Part shown: piece after piece, positions 56-5,587 of the stretch
Layout of the letters: the number at the start of each line of letters is the position of its first letter
Numbering within the stretch: the first letter of the stretch is position 1
From: Pilimelia terevasa
Lineage (GTDB): Bacteria; Actinomycetota; Actinomycetes; Mycobacteriales; Micromonosporaceae
Length of the DNA stretch: 64,000 nt
Direction: 5' to 3'
Assembly (NCBI RefSeq): GCF_014647915.1
Contig: NZ_BMQC01000007.1
Coordinates: 62,001 to 126,000 of the forward strand
Translations under genes and position numbers: made by a program
The notes under the pieces: generated by a model
Seen by the model: the letters and a program-made list of their open reading frames with translations, nothing else
What the model was told of the DNA's origin: nothing
Database searches by the model: none

Positions 56-1408
56 GTGGCGGAACGGTCAGTCGGGCAGGGTGCGGACACACTGCCGGTA
101 CCGCGGCGGGTCGCCACCCTCTCGGTGCACACCTCCCCCCTGCACCAACCGGGCACCGGGGACGCGGGCGGGCTGAACGTCTACGTCGCCGAGGTCTCGC
201 GCCGCCTGGCCGCCCGCGGCGTCGAGGTCGAGGTGTTCACCCGCGCGACCGCGAGCGGGGTGCCGCCGGTGGTCGAGCTGGCACCGGGGGTCCGCGTCCG
301 GCACGTCGTGGCGGGCCCGTTCGAGGGCCTGGCCAAGGAGGACCTGCCCGCCCAGCTCTGCGCGTTCGCCACCGGGGTGCTGCGGGCCGAGGCCGGGCGC
401 CCGCCGGGGTGGTACGACGCGGTGCACTCCCACTACTGGCTGTCCGGGCAGGTGGGCTGGCTGGCCCGGGACCGCTGGGGCGTACCGCTGGTGCACACCG
501 CGCACACCCTGGCCAAGGTCAAGAACGCGCAGCTCGCGGCCGGGGACCGGCCCGAGCCGCTGGCCCGGCTGATCGGCGAGGAGCAGGTGGTCGGCGAGGC
601 CGACCGGCTGGTGGCCAACACCGCCGCGGAGGCCGCCGCGCTGGTCGACGGGTACGGCGCCGCGGCCGACCAGGTCGCCGTCGTCGCCCCGGGCGTGGAC
701 CTGGACAGGTTCCGCCCGCCGAGCGTCGGCTGCGCGCAGACGGTGCGGCGGCGCTCGCGGCGCGAGTGCGGCCTGCCGCCGGACGGCCCGCTGGTGGCCT
801 TCGTCGGCCGGATCCAGCCGCTGAAGGGGCCGGAGGTCCTGCTGCGCGCGGTGGCCGCGCTGGCGCGGCGCGACCCGGCTGCGGTCGCCGGGCTCACCGT
901 CGCCGTCGTGGGTGGACCCAGCGGCAGCGGCCTGGACCGGCCGGCCGGCCTGATCGAGCTGGCGCACCGGCTCGGCATCGCCGACCACGTCCACTTCCTC
1001 GCGCCGCTGCCCCCGCCGCGGCTCGCCGTCCTGTACCGGGCGGCGGACGTGGTCGCCGTGCCGTCGTACAGCGAGTCGTTCGGCCTGGTGGCGCTGGAGG
1101 CCCAGGCCTGCGGTACGCCGGTGCTGGCGGCCGCGGTCGGCGGCCTGGTGACCGCCGTCCGCGACGGCGTCAGCGGGGCCCTCGTCGAGGGGCACGACCC
1201 GCAGCGGTGGGCGGCCGCGCTGGCCCGGCTGCTGGGCGATCCGGCCCGCCTGGCGGCGCTGGGCGCCGGGGCGGCCGCCCACGCCGAGCGGTTCTCCTGG
1301 GACCGCACGGTCGACAGCCTGCTGACCGTCTACGGTGAGGCGATGCGCCGTAACCAGCACCGCCTGCGCGCCCGCCTGGCCGCGACCGCCGGCCGGGCCG
1401 CCTGGTGA
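56..1408 (+). CDS. mshA: D-inositol-3-phosphate glycosyltransferase (mycothiol synthesis)
   Basis: First committed enzyme of mycothiol synthesis: a cytoplasmic GT4 retaining glycosyltransferase joining GlcNAc from UDP-GlcNAc to 1L-inositol 3-phosphate. The N-terminal Rossmann half carries the GGLNVYV loop (about residues 38-44), and the C-terminal half carries the EX7E signature ESFGLVALE (Glu340/Glu348). The reading frame is open to the window edge, but GTG at 56 has a GGAGG ribosome site at 42-46 and gives 450 aa, usual for the family, so it was preferred to GTG 17. The next gene starts inside the stop codon. The mshA-YbjN-gpmA-senX3-regX3 order is a known actinobacterial neighbourhood. Confidence 0.95.
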
Positions 1409-1905
1409 GCGACCCGGCCGTCGTCGCCGACCTCATCGCGCGGTTCTGCGCCGAGGGGGAGCTGGCGTGCGAGGCGACGGGGCCGCGGTCGTTCGCGGTG
1501 ACGCTGCCCGGTACGCACAAGCTGAAGACCGTCTGCAACCTCATCGTCGGCGAGCACGCGCTGCGGGTCGAGGCGTTCGTGATGCGCCAGCCGGACGAGC
1601 GCCGCGAGGACCTGTGGGCCTGGCTGCTGCGCCGCAACGCCCGGCTGTACGGCGTGGCGTTCTCCATCGACGGCGCCGGTGACGTCTACCTGACCGGCCG
1701 CGTGGGCCTGGGCGCCGTCGACGCCGACGAGCTGGACCGGCTGCTGGGCGCGGTCCTGACGTACGCCGACGAGTCCTTCGACATGCTGCTGGAGATCGGC
1801 TTCGGGGAGGCGATCCGGCGGGAGTGGCGGTGGCGGCGCAGCCGCGGCGAGTCGGTCGCCAACCTGCGGGCGTTCGCGCACCTGATGCCCGCGGAGTCCG
1901 ACTAG
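1405..1905 (+). CDS. YbjN domain-containing protein
   Basis: A 166-aa cytoplasmic protein of the YbjN family, a chaperone-like fold related to type III secretion chaperones. No enzymatic role is established. The GTG start overlaps the mshA stop as GTGA, so the two genes are translationally coupled. The protein is mixed alpha/beta without signal peptide or membrane segment, with an acidic C-terminal half around the DELDRLL and [12 protein letters not shown] stretches. This gene commonly follows mshA in actinobacteria; its contribution to mycothiol metabolism, if any, is unknown. Confidence 0.85.
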
Positions 1906-1984
1906 CGCGGTTCGCGGCGTGACCCCGTTCACTGGTCGTGATGTTCCGCGACCACATTGTGACCGTCCCGACATGTGCGGGCCG

Positions 1985-2014
1985 TTGTCCCCGGGTGTGC
2001 CGACCTCCTAGAGT
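1985..2014 (+). promoter_or_regulatory. Promoter of first tandem RNA cassette
   Basis: TTGTCC (1985-1990), an 18-bp spacer and TAGAGT (2009-2014) form a good housekeeping-type promoter. No coding start follows; the downstream sequence is a structured non-coding segment ending in a strong hairpin. The same box pair recurs at 2291-2319. Confidence 0.6.
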
Positions 2015-2019
2015 CGACG

Positions 2020-2215
2020 GCGGCACCGGTTGTGGGACCGGGTGCCGACCAGACTCCGGGCCGCCTGGCGGCGTCGCGTCCGCGGCGTCCGCGCGACGGG
2101 GGAGTGCTGGGGTGGGGTAAAAGGGGCGGCGCGCCGCCTCGCCGTTGGGGAACGGCCAGGGAAGCCGGCAGGCTCCGACCACGACAGTGGCGGAGCACGC
2201 CGGCTTCATCCGTTC
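2020..2215 (+). ncRNA. Candidate structured small RNA, copy 1
   Basis: Predicted transcript of about 195 nt. It opens with a CGGCACC/GGTGCCG hairpin whose loop contains GTGGGA, continues through ACCAGACTCCG, a purine-rich GCTGGGGTGGG stretch and a short CCGTT-GGGG-AACGG hairpin, and ends in a long hairpin (GAAGCCGGC 2161-2169 pairing with GCCGGCTTC 2199-2207, with inner GCTCCG/CGGAGC pairing). All of these recur in the same order in copy 2. I found no open frame with a ribosome site. The 3' hairpin has no long T run, which is common for actinobacterial terminators. The RNA family was not recognised. Confidence 0.5.
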
Positions 2216-2290
2216 CCCCCGGTGCGGGGCGGCCCGCGGCCCGGTCGCTCCCCCTCACCGCGGTATGACCAGAATGAGTTTCACGAACCG

Positions 2291-2319
2291 TTGTCCCCGG
2301 CGCCCGGGTTCCCTACAGT
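2291..2319 (+). promoter_or_regulatory. Promoter of second tandem RNA cassette
   Basis: TTGTCC (2291-2296), a 17-bp spacer and TACAGT (2314-2319). The -35 hexamer and its CCGTTGTCCCCGG surroundings match the first cassette's promoter, while the spacer sequence differs, so it is the promoter elements that have been conserved. Confidence 0.6.
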
Positions 2320-2324
2320 CGATG

Positions 2325-2515
2325 TCGGCACCGCGGTGGGACACGGTGCCGAACCAGGCTCCGCCACCGGCGGCGCCGCCCCCCGGGGCGGTGCCGCCGC
2401 CGTGCGGAGCGCTGGGGGTGGGATCGACGGCTCGGCCGTCACGCCGTTGGGGAACGGCCCTGGAACCGGCGGACCGCCGGCCGCCGCGCGCGGTCGGGTC
2501 CGCCGGTTCCTCGTC
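2325..2515 (+). ncRNA. Candidate structured small RNA, copy 2
   Basis: Predicted transcript of about 190 nt, a diverged duplicate of the RNA at 2020-2215. Shared elements in order are the CGGCACCG/CGGTGCCG hairpin, ACCAGGCTCCG, GCTGGGGGTGGG, and CCGTT-GGGG-AACGG. It ends in a perfect 13-bp stem (2462-2474 with 2498-2510). The segment between conserved blocks differs in sequence but again folds into GC hairpins, which suggests selection on structure. It could instead be a long leader of gpmA, since the hairpin ends about 60 nt before that gene. Confidence 0.5.
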
Positions 2516-2573
2516 GGCGGCGCGGCGCCGGGGCAGCGTCGCCGCGTGCCCCGCGGTCGGGCACTATGAGGCC

Positions 2574-3323
2574 ATGACTGTGGGTACCCTCGTGCTGCTG
2601 CGGCACGGCGAGAGCGAGTGGAACGTCAAGAACCTGTTCACCGGCTGGGTCGACGTCGACCTGACCGCCCGGGGCGAGGACGAGGCGCGCCGGGGCGGCG
2701 AGCTGCTGGTCGCGCAGGGCATCCTGCCCGACGTGGTCCACACCAGCCTCCAGCGGCGGGCCATCCGCACCGCGCAGCTCAGCCTGGAGACGTGCGACCG
2801 GCACTGGATCCCGGTGCGCCGCTCGTGGCGGCTCAACGAGCGCCACTACGGGGCGTTGCAGGGCAAGGACAAGAAGCAGACGCTCGCCGAGTACGGCGAG
2901 GAGCAGTTCATGAAGTGGCGGCGCTCGTACGACACGCCGCCGCCGCCGCTGCCCGACGACGCGGAGTTCTCGCAGGTCCACGACCCGCGGTACGCGGAGC
3001 TGCCGGGCGAGCTGCGCCCGCGCAGCGAGTGCCTCAAGGACGTCGTGGCGCGGATGCTGCCGTACTGGTACGACCGGGTCGTCCCGGACCTGCGCGCCGG
3101 CCGCACCGTCCTGGTGGCCGCGCACGGCAACTCGCTGCGCGGCCTGGTCAAGCACCTGGACGGGATCTCCGACGCCGACATCGCGGCACTGAACATCCCC
3201 ACCGGGATGCCGCTGCGCTACGACCTGGACGCGGACCTGCGCCCGACCAACCCCGGCGGTACCTACCTGGACCCGGCCGCGGCCACCGCCGCCGCGGCCG
3301 CCGTGGCGGCCCAGGGGCGCTGA
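2574..3323 (+). CDS. gpmA: 2,3-bisphosphoglycerate-dependent phosphoglycerate mutase
   Basis: Interconverts 3- and 2-phosphoglycerate in glycolysis and gluconeogenesis through a phosphohistidine. The protein is 249 aa, the normal length. The catalytic motif is LRHGESEWN with His11, and the second active-site histidine lies in AAHGNSLRG. The frame runs open far upstream, but ATG 2574 is where homology to the family begins ([14 protein letters not shown]). There is no convincing ribosome site; a CACTAT element six bases upstream could make the mRNA leaderless. The C-terminus is an alanine-rich tail. A strong terminator follows. Confidence 0.95.
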
Positions 3324-3781: not shown

Positions 3782-5587
3782 ATGCAGACAGCGATTGCCA
3801 CAATGGCCGTTCTGTTGGCGGCGGCTGCCCTGCCGGGGTCGGCCGCCGGCCCGACAACGCCCGCCGAACGCACGACCAGCGGCCCGCACGCCCCGGCACT
3901 GGAGGCGCTGCTCGGGGGGCGCGTGGGCGTGCCCACCGGCCCGCTGCCCACGTCGACGCCGCCGACGACGTCGCCGACAGACGGCGCCGACATGACCGGC
4001 TTCGTCTGCGATGGCAACGGCGGCGCCCGCGCCGAGGTGCTCTACGTGCGGGAGGCCACCATGCCCGACCGCCACGCGGCGATGCAGCCGGTGCTGCAAG
4101 CGTGGCTGGTGAACGCCGACGCCGCGTTCAACGACGGCGCGGCGCGGCAGGGGCAGAGCCGGCACCTGCGGTTTCTGACCGAGAAGGTCGGCGACGGCTG
4201 CCGGGCGGTGGTCAAGCACGTGGTAGTGCCGGAGGGTTCCCTCAAGGACTTCGAACAGTCGGTGGACGCGGTCCGCGCCCTCGACTACGACCAGAATGAC
4301 CGCAAGTATTTGATGATCACTGAGTCCACGGAGGTCTGCGGCATCGCCGGCTACTCCAGTGACGACTCGCCCGGCCCCGGCAACGCCTCGAACACCGGCA
4401 CCAGCTATCTGCGGGTCGACGCCACCGCCGGCTGCCTCGGCGCCAACGCGATCGCCCACGAGATGGGGCACGCGCTGGGTGCGGTGCAGGACTCTGCCCC
4501 GCACGCTGACGACGGGCACTGCACGCAGGCGCTCGACATGATGTGTCACGACGACAAGACGCCCACGCCCGACTGCCCGGAGTGGGACTCCAAGCGGCTA
4601 CCCGACTGCGCCGGCGACGACTACTTCAACGTCGCCCCGCCAGCGGGCAGCTACCTGGCCACCCACTGGAACCTCGCCCGGTCGCGGTACTTCTACGCCA
4701 GCGACGCTCCCAGCAACGCCGACTACCCCCGGCCTGGTTTCACCTACCTGGTGACGAACGCGGCGTCGGGCGCGGCGTTGGACATCGACCCCGCCGACGG
4801 CTCCACCAACGACCCCAGGCGCTACCTGTCCGCCGCCCCCGCCGACAGCGCCTCCGCCACCCAGAAGTGGCTGGTCGGTTACGACCTGGGCATCCAGCTC
4901 ATGAACAACGACAGCCTCCTCTGCCTCGACTCCGCCAACCGTAGCCAGAAGCCCGGCACCCGTTCGTACCAGGTTGAATGCGCCGGTGAGGATGGACAGC
5001 GCTGGGCCTACCTGCCGCACACCGACGGTTCGTTCAGCATCCTGAACTGGCTGACGGGCCTGGCGCTGACCCAGGGTCGTCCGGACAAGCCGCTGGTGAA
5101 GCAGCAGGTGTACTCGGGCGCGGCGAACCAGCGGTGGCACGTCAAGCGGATCGCCGACCCGGCGCCGCTGGGCAGCTCCGGCACCTACCACCTGGCCGCC
5201 CTCAGCTCCCGGGACGCGGTGTCCGCTCCGGCCCCCAGCCTGCCCGGCACCGTCGTCACGCACAGCCCCCGCAGCAACGCGACCAGCCAGCAGTGGCGGC
5301 TGACCGCCCGGGGACAGTACTGGCAGCTCAAGCTCTCCTCGACGGCCCTGTGCGTGAGCAACAACCGCGCCACCACGGTCGGCGGCGAGCTGACACTGCG
5401 CCCCTGCGCCATCACGGGCACCGACCAGCAGTGGAGCCTGACGCGCATCGCCGACGGCCGGTACCAGTTGGTCAACCGCCTCAGCGGCCTGGCCATGGCC
5501 ATGACCGACGGCGACCTGTCCGCCCTGCAGCAGCAGCCCGCCGATGCCAAGAACCGGGCGCAGGTCTTCGCGTTGACGCTGGACTGA
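3782..5587 (+). CDS. Secreted HExxH zinc metalloprotease with C-terminal ricin-type lectin repeats
   Basis: A 601-aa exported protein. ATG 3782 has a strong AAGGAGAGG site at 3766-3774 and starts a signal peptide (about residues 1-22, cleavage near SAAG), followed by a Thr/Pro-rich linker. The catalytic domain has HEMGHALG (His226, Glu227, His230), a metallopeptidase zinc motif. The position where classical metzincins have the third ligand (HExxHxxGxxH) is Gln, so the third ligand must lie elsewhere; a His-rich SAPHADDGH stretch and DMMCHDD follow. Roughly residues 318-601 contain repeated QxW motifs (QKW, QRW, QRW, QQW, QQW), indicating two ricin-B beta-trefoils for carbohydrate binding. Probable role is degradation of extracellular protein or glycoprotein. 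It is monocistronic, between terminators. Confidence 0.8.
   Translation: MQTAIATMAVLLAAAALPGSAAGPTTPAERTTSGPHAPALEALLGGRVGVPTGPLPTSTPPTTSPTDGADMTGFVCDGNGGARAEVLYVREATMPDRHAAMQPVLQAWLVNADAAFNDGAARQGQSRHLRFLTEKVGDGCRAVVKHVVVPEGSLKDFEQSVDAVRALDYDQNDRKYLMITESTEVCGIAGYSSDDSPGPGNASNTGTSYLRVDATAGCLGANAIAHEMGHALGAVQDSAPHADDGHCTQALDMMCHDDKTPTPDCPEWDSKRLPDCAGDDYFNVAPPAGSYLATHWNLARSRYFYASDAPSNADYPRPGFTYLVTNAASGAALDIDPADGSTNDPRRYLSAAPADSASATQKWLVGYDLGIQLMNNDSLLCLDSANRSQKPGTRSYQVECAGEDGQRWAYLPHTDGSFSILNWLTGLALTQGRPDKPLVKQQVYSGAANQRWHVKRIADPAPLGSSGTYHLAALSSRDAVSAPAPSLPGTVVTHSPRSNATSQQWRLTARGQYWQLKLSSTALCVSNNRATTVGGELTLRPCAITGTDQQWSLTRIADGRYQLVNRLSGLAMAMTDGDLSALQQQPADAKNRAQVFALTLD

Follow-up and report, generated by a model that had tools for sequence, protein, structure and literature searches.

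The region between the ybjN-like and gpmA-like genes of Pilimelia terevasa raises the question of what two similar, consecutive cassettes are doing there, each with a promoter, a putative RNA and a final hairpin. Are they a regulatory leader of gpmA, or small RNA genes in their own right, and if the latter, of what kind? The region lies in a 64-kb stretch of DNA that was analysed as a whole and is termed here the window.

The cassettes occupy positions 1958–2515 and are offset by about 305 nt (Table 1). When the copies are aligned with each other (1958–2215 against 2264–2515), the local alignment score is 126, compared with 27.1 ± 4.5 (maximum 43) for 500 dinucleotide shuffles, and the best alignment runs from the −35 box as far as the beginning of the final hairpin. 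Direct repeats with a spacing of 306 cover the TTGTCC box, where 13 of 13 bases match, and others with a spacing of 302 cover the H3 region, where 27 of 31 match. An alignment so far above the shuffles, together with the direct repeats, points to a tandem duplication that has since diverged. Both cassettes share CGGCACC/GGTGCCG hairpins, ACCAG-CTCC, GCTGGGG(G)TGGG and a final long hairpin, and CCGTTGGGGAACGG is present in each (2142–2155 and 2444–2457).

An earlier, sequence-only reading of this DNA had listed such elements, and direct inspection of the letters finds every one of them where it had been placed. Its division into two units also stands, but not the start it gave, as the unit begins further 5′ at TGTGA-N8-ACA (1958; degenerate at 2264). 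Two of its descriptions are not supported: the ends are not recognizable terminators, since the final hairpins are without a U-tract and a terminator scan returned none, and the promoters cannot be called strong, a sigma-70 consensus scan having also returned none.

Table 1. Features of the window locus between and including the two syntenic anchor genes
Feature	Position	Strand	Basis or remark
ybjN-like gene, upstream syntenic anchor	1405–1905	+	ORF; homologues in 92/101 genomes; name from the sequence-only reading
Copy 1 upstream element TGTGACCGTCCCGACA (TGTGA-N8-ACA)	1958–1973	+	Element in 64/72 upstream regions of relatives
Copy 1 promoter: −35 TTGTCC 1985–1990, −10 TAGAGT 2009–2014, spacer 18	1985–2014	+	−35 starts 27 nt after element start (relatives: 26–27, spacer 17–18)
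Copy 1 RNA, ~190 nt, both ends inferred	2021–2210	+	Fold; R1 match 2127–2203
Copy 1 5′ hairpin, loop GTGG	2021–2047	+	Predicted fold
Copy 1 tract GGGGG-N6-GGGG-T-GGGG-N5-GGGG	2098–2126	+	Quadruplex-type motif; copy 2 is without such a motif
Copy 1 H3 hairpin CCGTT-GGGG-AACGG	2142–2155	+	Homologous loop in 61/61 relatives, in part because the search pattern contains H3
Copy 1 3′ terminal hairpin, terminator-like, without U-tract	2161–2207	+	
Copy 2 degenerate upstream element TATGACCAGAATGAGT	2264–2279	+	Starts 27 nt before TTGTCC; read by eye
Copy 2 promoter: −35 TTGTCC 2291–2296, −10 TACAGT 2314–2319, spacer 17	2291–2319	+	
Copy 2 RNA, ~187 nt, both ends inferred	2326–2512	+	Fold; R1 match 2426–2506
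Copy 2 5′ hairpin, loop GTGGGA	2326–2351	+	Predicted fold
Copy 2 long hairpin CCAG-GCTCCG...CGGAGC-GCTGG	2354–2415	+	Predicted fold
Copy 2 GGGGGTGGG	2414–2422	+	
Copy 2 H3 hairpin CCGTT-GGGG-AACGG	2444–2457	+	Outside minimum-energy fold; pair probability ~0.29
Copy 2 3′ terminal hairpin, perfect outer stem of 14 bp	2462–2510	+	
gpmA-like gene, downstream syntenic anchor	2574–3323	+	ORF; homologues in 57/61 genomes; name from the sequence-only reading

BLASTN of the 531-nt region against its own genome and relatives recovers this region and numerous short matches rich in GC, and homologues were sought instead through motifs, synteny and covariance. The syntenic region of relatives was located by means of GpmA and YbjN, and a motif scan then applied to it reveals a conserved RNA near ybjN/gpmA in many of them. 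Named genomes were scanned with a pattern that includes the H3 hairpin; 94 stretches resulted, of which 80 are listed. These 80 loci are mostly from Micromonospora, and the remainder include Salinispora, Catellatospora, Phytohabitans, Asanoa, Hamadaea, Rhizocola, Allorhizocola, one ‘Verrucosispora’ and two unclassified Micromonosporaceae. They yield 66 RNAs, 61 of them distinct; nine of the other 14 loci have no promoter match and five have too little upstream sequence.

The 3′ domain of the RNA was described by a covariance model, R1, of 103 positions. The 25 segments cut for it included both window copies and the divergent L043, L096 and L097; these five were deliberately omitted, and the model is based on the remaining 20, all from relatives. 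R1 has 12 matches in the 64-kb window up to E 10, and the two cassettes rank first (copy 2, 2426–2506, 22.7 bits, E 0.0057) and second (copy 1, 2127–2203, 17.7 bits, E 0.068). In searches on the scale of whole genomes the source genome has no R1 match at E 0.01, the window copies being below threshold there. At E 0.01 the model matches 46 of 151 relatives, each within Micromonosporaceae, and 281 of 354 Micromonosporaceae genomes, representing 22 of 44 genera, with 73 genomes missed. Two of 296 genomes in a class sample have matches and both belong to Micromonosporaceae. No match was found outside this family among the 151 relatives or in the class sample, which may or may not include Streptomyces.

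Weaker R1 matches are found about 90–300 nt downstream of ybjN in several genera that have no clear match (G002, E 3e-5; G006, 0.019; G022, 0.021; G078, 0.044; G070, 0.076; G034, 0.1; G076, 0.89), and the sequences at these places show G-rich hairpin loops. It should be pointed out that a single weak match proves little, since chance matches on the opposite strand arise in the same search at E 0.018 and 0.045 (L092, +; L077, −).

A search of Rfam, which the sequence-only reading had proposed, matched no family inside the cassettes: with Rfam 15, positions 1500–3000 of the window give six matches up to E 10, all below their own cut-offs and none within either cassette. Ten RNA-bearing loci of relatives give nothing above cut-off and one chance microRNA match. 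As judged from these searches, the RNA family is absent from Rfam 15 and is found only in Micromonosporaceae. A literature search of open-licence papers found no description of the G-loop RNA; PMC7682106 has no match to small-RNA terms and PMC11077062 has none to the gene names looked for.

Proposed secondary structures of the relatives' RNAs, which have a mean length of 170 nt, reveal a common plan. The consensus starts with a 5′ multibranch domain, P1, which has hairpin H1 (GTTC-GGGG-GAAC) and a second hairpin whose loop is mostly GATCA. This is followed by a linker, GGGGGAYGGGTGG, then by a stem GGTGGC/GCCACC that encloses H3 (CCGTT-GGGG-GACGG), and finally by a long hairpin at the 3′ end that is capped by a GGGG loop. 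Three GGGG hairpin loops are present in 59 of the 61 distinct RNAs and in none of 305 shuffles, P1 is closed in 60 of the 61, and fold z-scores for the first 15 average −7.0. The invariance of H3 is partly by construction, as the search pattern holds H3; H1, the terminal loop and the promoter are outside the pattern. The sequence-only reading had pointed to a conserved single-stranded purine tract. The G-tracts are indeed conserved, but in the canonical relatives they are mostly hairpin loops rather than a tract of that kind. The GATCA pentaloop accounts for 46 hairpin loops among the 61 RNAs, and its self-complementary GATC core could allow dimers.

Comparative alignment, also proposed in the sequence-only reading, detects covariation in the stems of the relatives. 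In an alignment of 68 distinct rows out of 82, which was fitted to the model, leans towards it and includes two reverse-strand matches (L165, +; L197, −), 98.1% of cells are paired. Both-sided changes affect 8 pairs and 38 cells of this alignment; shuffles give 3.0 and 7.3 (0/500), and slid versions reach at most 4 pairs and 12 cells. A smaller alignment that was not fitted to a model (nine sequences) has both-sided changes in 11 of 51 predicted pairs, some of them in H1 and H2.

The absence of a coding frame, asserted earlier, holds only in part. Open frames do cross the cassette region in the window, but no frame is kept among the 61 relatives. Stops are present in the three frames in 16, 34 and 36 of the 61, compared with 47% in shuffles, and the distance from H3 to the terminal loop takes all three residues modulo 3 (33, 25, 3). 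One reading frame is stop-free in 45 of the 61, and coding by the RNA region is judged unlikely rather than impossible.

How do the two window copies compare with this plan? Both are predicted to fold more stably than shuffles (z −4.5 for copy 1 and −3.7 for copy 2). In copy 1 the 5′ hairpin, with loop GTGG, is followed by a middle domain, by H3 with its GGGG loop and finally by the terminal hairpin. The elements of copy 2 come in the same order, but its minimum-energy fold lacks H3; the CCGTTGGGGAACGG hairpin described earlier for both copies has a pair probability of ~0.72 in copy 1 and ~0.29 in copy 2. The H3 GGGG loop sequence and a G-rich 5′ loop (GTGG in copy 1, GTGGGA in copy 2) are retained, and neither copy has a G-loop in its terminal hairpin, so that the three GGGG hairpins of the relatives are not complete in either. 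Because this terminal G-loop is lacking, the window copies are best classed as divergent homologues and not as canonical members of the family. Homology itself is suggested jointly by the ranking of the two cassettes under R1, by a promoter element spaced as in the relatives, and by the H3 and the locus that they have in common with them.

The second option of the sequence-only reading was that the cassettes form a cis-acting tandem leader of gpmA, such as a riboswitch or attenuator. The arrangement in the window is in keeping with this, as the RNA follows ybjN (end 1905) and precedes gpmA (2574) on the same strand, and copy 2 ends about 60 nt before gpmA. However, a position 5′ of gpmA is not constant among the 80 named loci. 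The counts here are lower bounds, many stretches ending before one anchor: ybjN precedes the RNA in the same orientation in 49 (at 126–1738 nt), gpmA is downstream on the same strand in 44, but 1.2–4.1 kb away, gpmA is convergent in nine (29–256 nt), a CaiB-like gene comes next after the RNA in six, and four stretches have neither ybjN nor gpmA. Moreover, each RNA closes with its own strong hairpin, and the genus g17 has extra copies elsewhere, with three or four RNA copies in 11 of the 11 genomes listed. In four g17 genomes with places listed, the copies are far apart or on different contigs (e.g. G016:C7:71345, G016:C12:36301 and G016:C33:3560). With neighbours that vary and additional copies in g17, a gpmA leader becomes highly improbable and action in trans likely. 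The sequences thus favour a free-standing small RNA, not a leader of gpmA, and we infer that it is transcribed and acts in trans. Further downstream in the window, the open reading frame at 3782–5587 has, by reading, a zinc-protease-like motif, HEMGHALG.

The upstream sequences provide a separate line of evidence. Of the 80 loci, 74 have enough upstream sequence, and 72 of these regions are distinct. TGTGA-N8-ACA is found in 64 of the 72, and in 62 regions a TTG −35 box follows 26–27 nt after its start, with a TA...T box after another 17–18 nt; the consensus in the 62 is TGTGAC(C/G)GGCGAGACA, with 11 distinct sites. Copy 1 has the element exactly, at 27 nt, and copy 2 only in degenerate form. 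The full pattern of element plus promoter matches the window once, at 1958–2014 (copy 1), and this is also its one match in the entire source genome. The pattern was written after the element had been seen by eye in the relatives and copy 1, which makes the window shuffle control optimistic and the genome-wide count the fairer test. In 61 genomes the count is 22 matches in 20 genomes, 14 of them (the one in the window included) directly upstream of the RNA as judged by where R1 places it; the pattern run backwards gives one match. The TGTGA half-site is presumably akin to CRP sites, and the other half-site is GACA, not TCACA. The full pattern also matches two perfect TGTGA-N6-TCACA sites before TTG/TA boxes in one relative (G026:C3:350077-350133 and G026:C17:198358-198412), which we take to be what a CRP-type regulon would show.

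Perhaps the conserved unit has no RNA function at all and serves at the DNA level, or in termination, near ybjN and gpmA. In favour of this, the RNA is so far a prediction from sequence. Yet the promoter is conserved at fixed spacing, the stems show compensatory changes and the unpaired loops are nearly invariant, and such a role appears extremely unlikely. The sequence-only reading's first option, duplicated small RNAs of about 190 nt, fares well: the similarity of the copies, the many Micromonosporaceae homologues, the covariation and the conserved promoter all argue for it. That the cassettes belong to a real, structured and free-standing family of small RNAs is considered very probable.

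What the RNA does is less clear from its sequence. The sequence-only reading suggested that it might bind RNA polymerase or a metabolite. The former would be a role like that of 6S or Ms1 RNA, and a length of about 170–190 nt and a free-standing RNA gene in an actinobacterium are in line with it. Ms1/6S RNA is a rod in which the 5′ and 3′ ends pair. However, the ends are paired in none of the 61 distinct RNAs of the relatives, the G-loop RNA has separate hairpin domains, and neither the cassettes nor the ten relatives' loci searched have an Rfam match above cut-off. Ms1, to which the G-loop RNA is similar in length and in its actinobacterial origin, is reported in a different gene neighbourhood, a HAD-hydrolase locus, Micromonosporaceae genera included (PMC9130861). 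An RNA polymerase-binding role is thus most doubtful, and this part of the earlier proposal is not supported.

Alternatively, the repeated GGGG hairpins and the G-rich linker might act as a decoy that titrates a protein. The loops and their closing pairs are almost invariant, and protein sponges are typically built in this way, with a number of nearly identical loops in a single RNA. CsrA is the classical partner of a GGA loop, and a CsrA sponge like CsrB/RsmZ can be envisaged, at least in CsrA-bearing genera such as that of the window. The source genome encodes CsrA (E 1e-23; G000:C2:272678-272833), the loops and linkers of the RNA contain GGA, divergent and weakly matching forms of it are present in several other CsrA genera, and it resembles the CsrB/RsmZ type in having several similar G-rich hairpin loops. 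The CsrA-binding loop motif is ANGGA, whereas the loops here are GGGG, and a CsrA match is lacking in 40 of the 46 genomes that carry the canonical RNA. With CsrA in six of the 46 R1-positive genomes, a CsrA sponge was rejected as the general function, and even in the CsrA-bearing genera it seems very improbable. The same count shows that CsrA is not the general partner of a protein decoy, which in its broader form is rather unlikely, though worth bearing in mind. CsrA is found in 47 of 151 relatives, and the CsrA genera g7, g23, g25 and g66 have weak R1 matches or none.

Other actinobacterial small RNAs offer a different type of partner. Streptomyces scr5583 and scr1434 are structured intergenic RNAs like the G-loop RNA (PMC3765725), but with C-rich loops, not G-rich ones. 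The 6C RNA (Rfam RF01066) and its homologue B11 are likewise actinobacterial, with hairpins that have homopolymer loops. They differ in that the loops are C-runs and not GGGG, and the model has 75 positions against about 170–190 nt; at the gathering cut-off of 6C there is no match in window positions 1500–3000 or in ten RNA-bearing loci of relatives. In Mycobacterium abscessus, B11 acts via its loops: these C-rich loops repress a target through a G-tract, and a double mutation restores both pairing and repression (PMC10470900). With this precedent, the nearly invariant G-tract loops might pair with C-rich RNA, 6C being the first candidate. Such pairing is put forward tentatively, as a reasonable possibility that falls somewhat short of an even chance.

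The following scheme can be proposed. A CRP-like regulator would switch the RNA gene via the TGTGA half-site. The RNA would then present several G-tract loops and a G-rich linker to C-rich single strands of other RNAs, with the C-rich loops of 6C-type small RNAs as prime candidate partners, and pairing would titrate or regulate these partners. A duplication of the RNA gene in the source genome has left two copies, both of them now diverged. For the explanation as a whole, i.e. tandem small-RNA paralogues, a CRP-like switch and loop pairing with C-rich RNA, the chances appear evenly balanced.

The distribution of 6C is compatible with pairing but does not discriminate: at E 0.001, in one set, 6C RNA is present in 18 of 20 R1-positive genomes, 10 of 17 other genomes of the family and 18 of 24 outside genomes. 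The 6C cut-off is exceeded in 43 of the 61 genomes of the set, and the source genome has only a match below it (41 bits against 47; G000:C3:133826-133899). A duplex was also computed for the RNA of one relative with a 6C locus, the strand of the 6C letters being unchecked; it was discarded as evidence, since strong pairing of a G-rich with a C-rich strand is expected regardless of function.

A narrower version would make the RNA a dedicated 6C antagonist under a CRP-like switch. Kissing contacts would form between the C-run loops of 6C and the GGGG loops and G-rich linker of the RNA, whose G-tracts would mimic the G-rich sites in the mRNA targets of 6C. We know of no loop-against-loop small-RNA pair of this type in Actinobacteria, and the narrower version is regarded as unlikely. 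To our knowledge, GGGG is also not a stabilizing tetraloop.

The RNA would thus be a regulatory small RNA that stands out by its G-loop design, and its nearly invariant GGGG loops point to a defined partner. It adds an uncatalogued and strongly conserved small RNA, as predicted here, to a family of antibiotic producers that comprises Micromonospora, Salinispora and their relatives. If the partner is 6C, a small-RNA sponge circuit in Actinobacteria would become directly testable.
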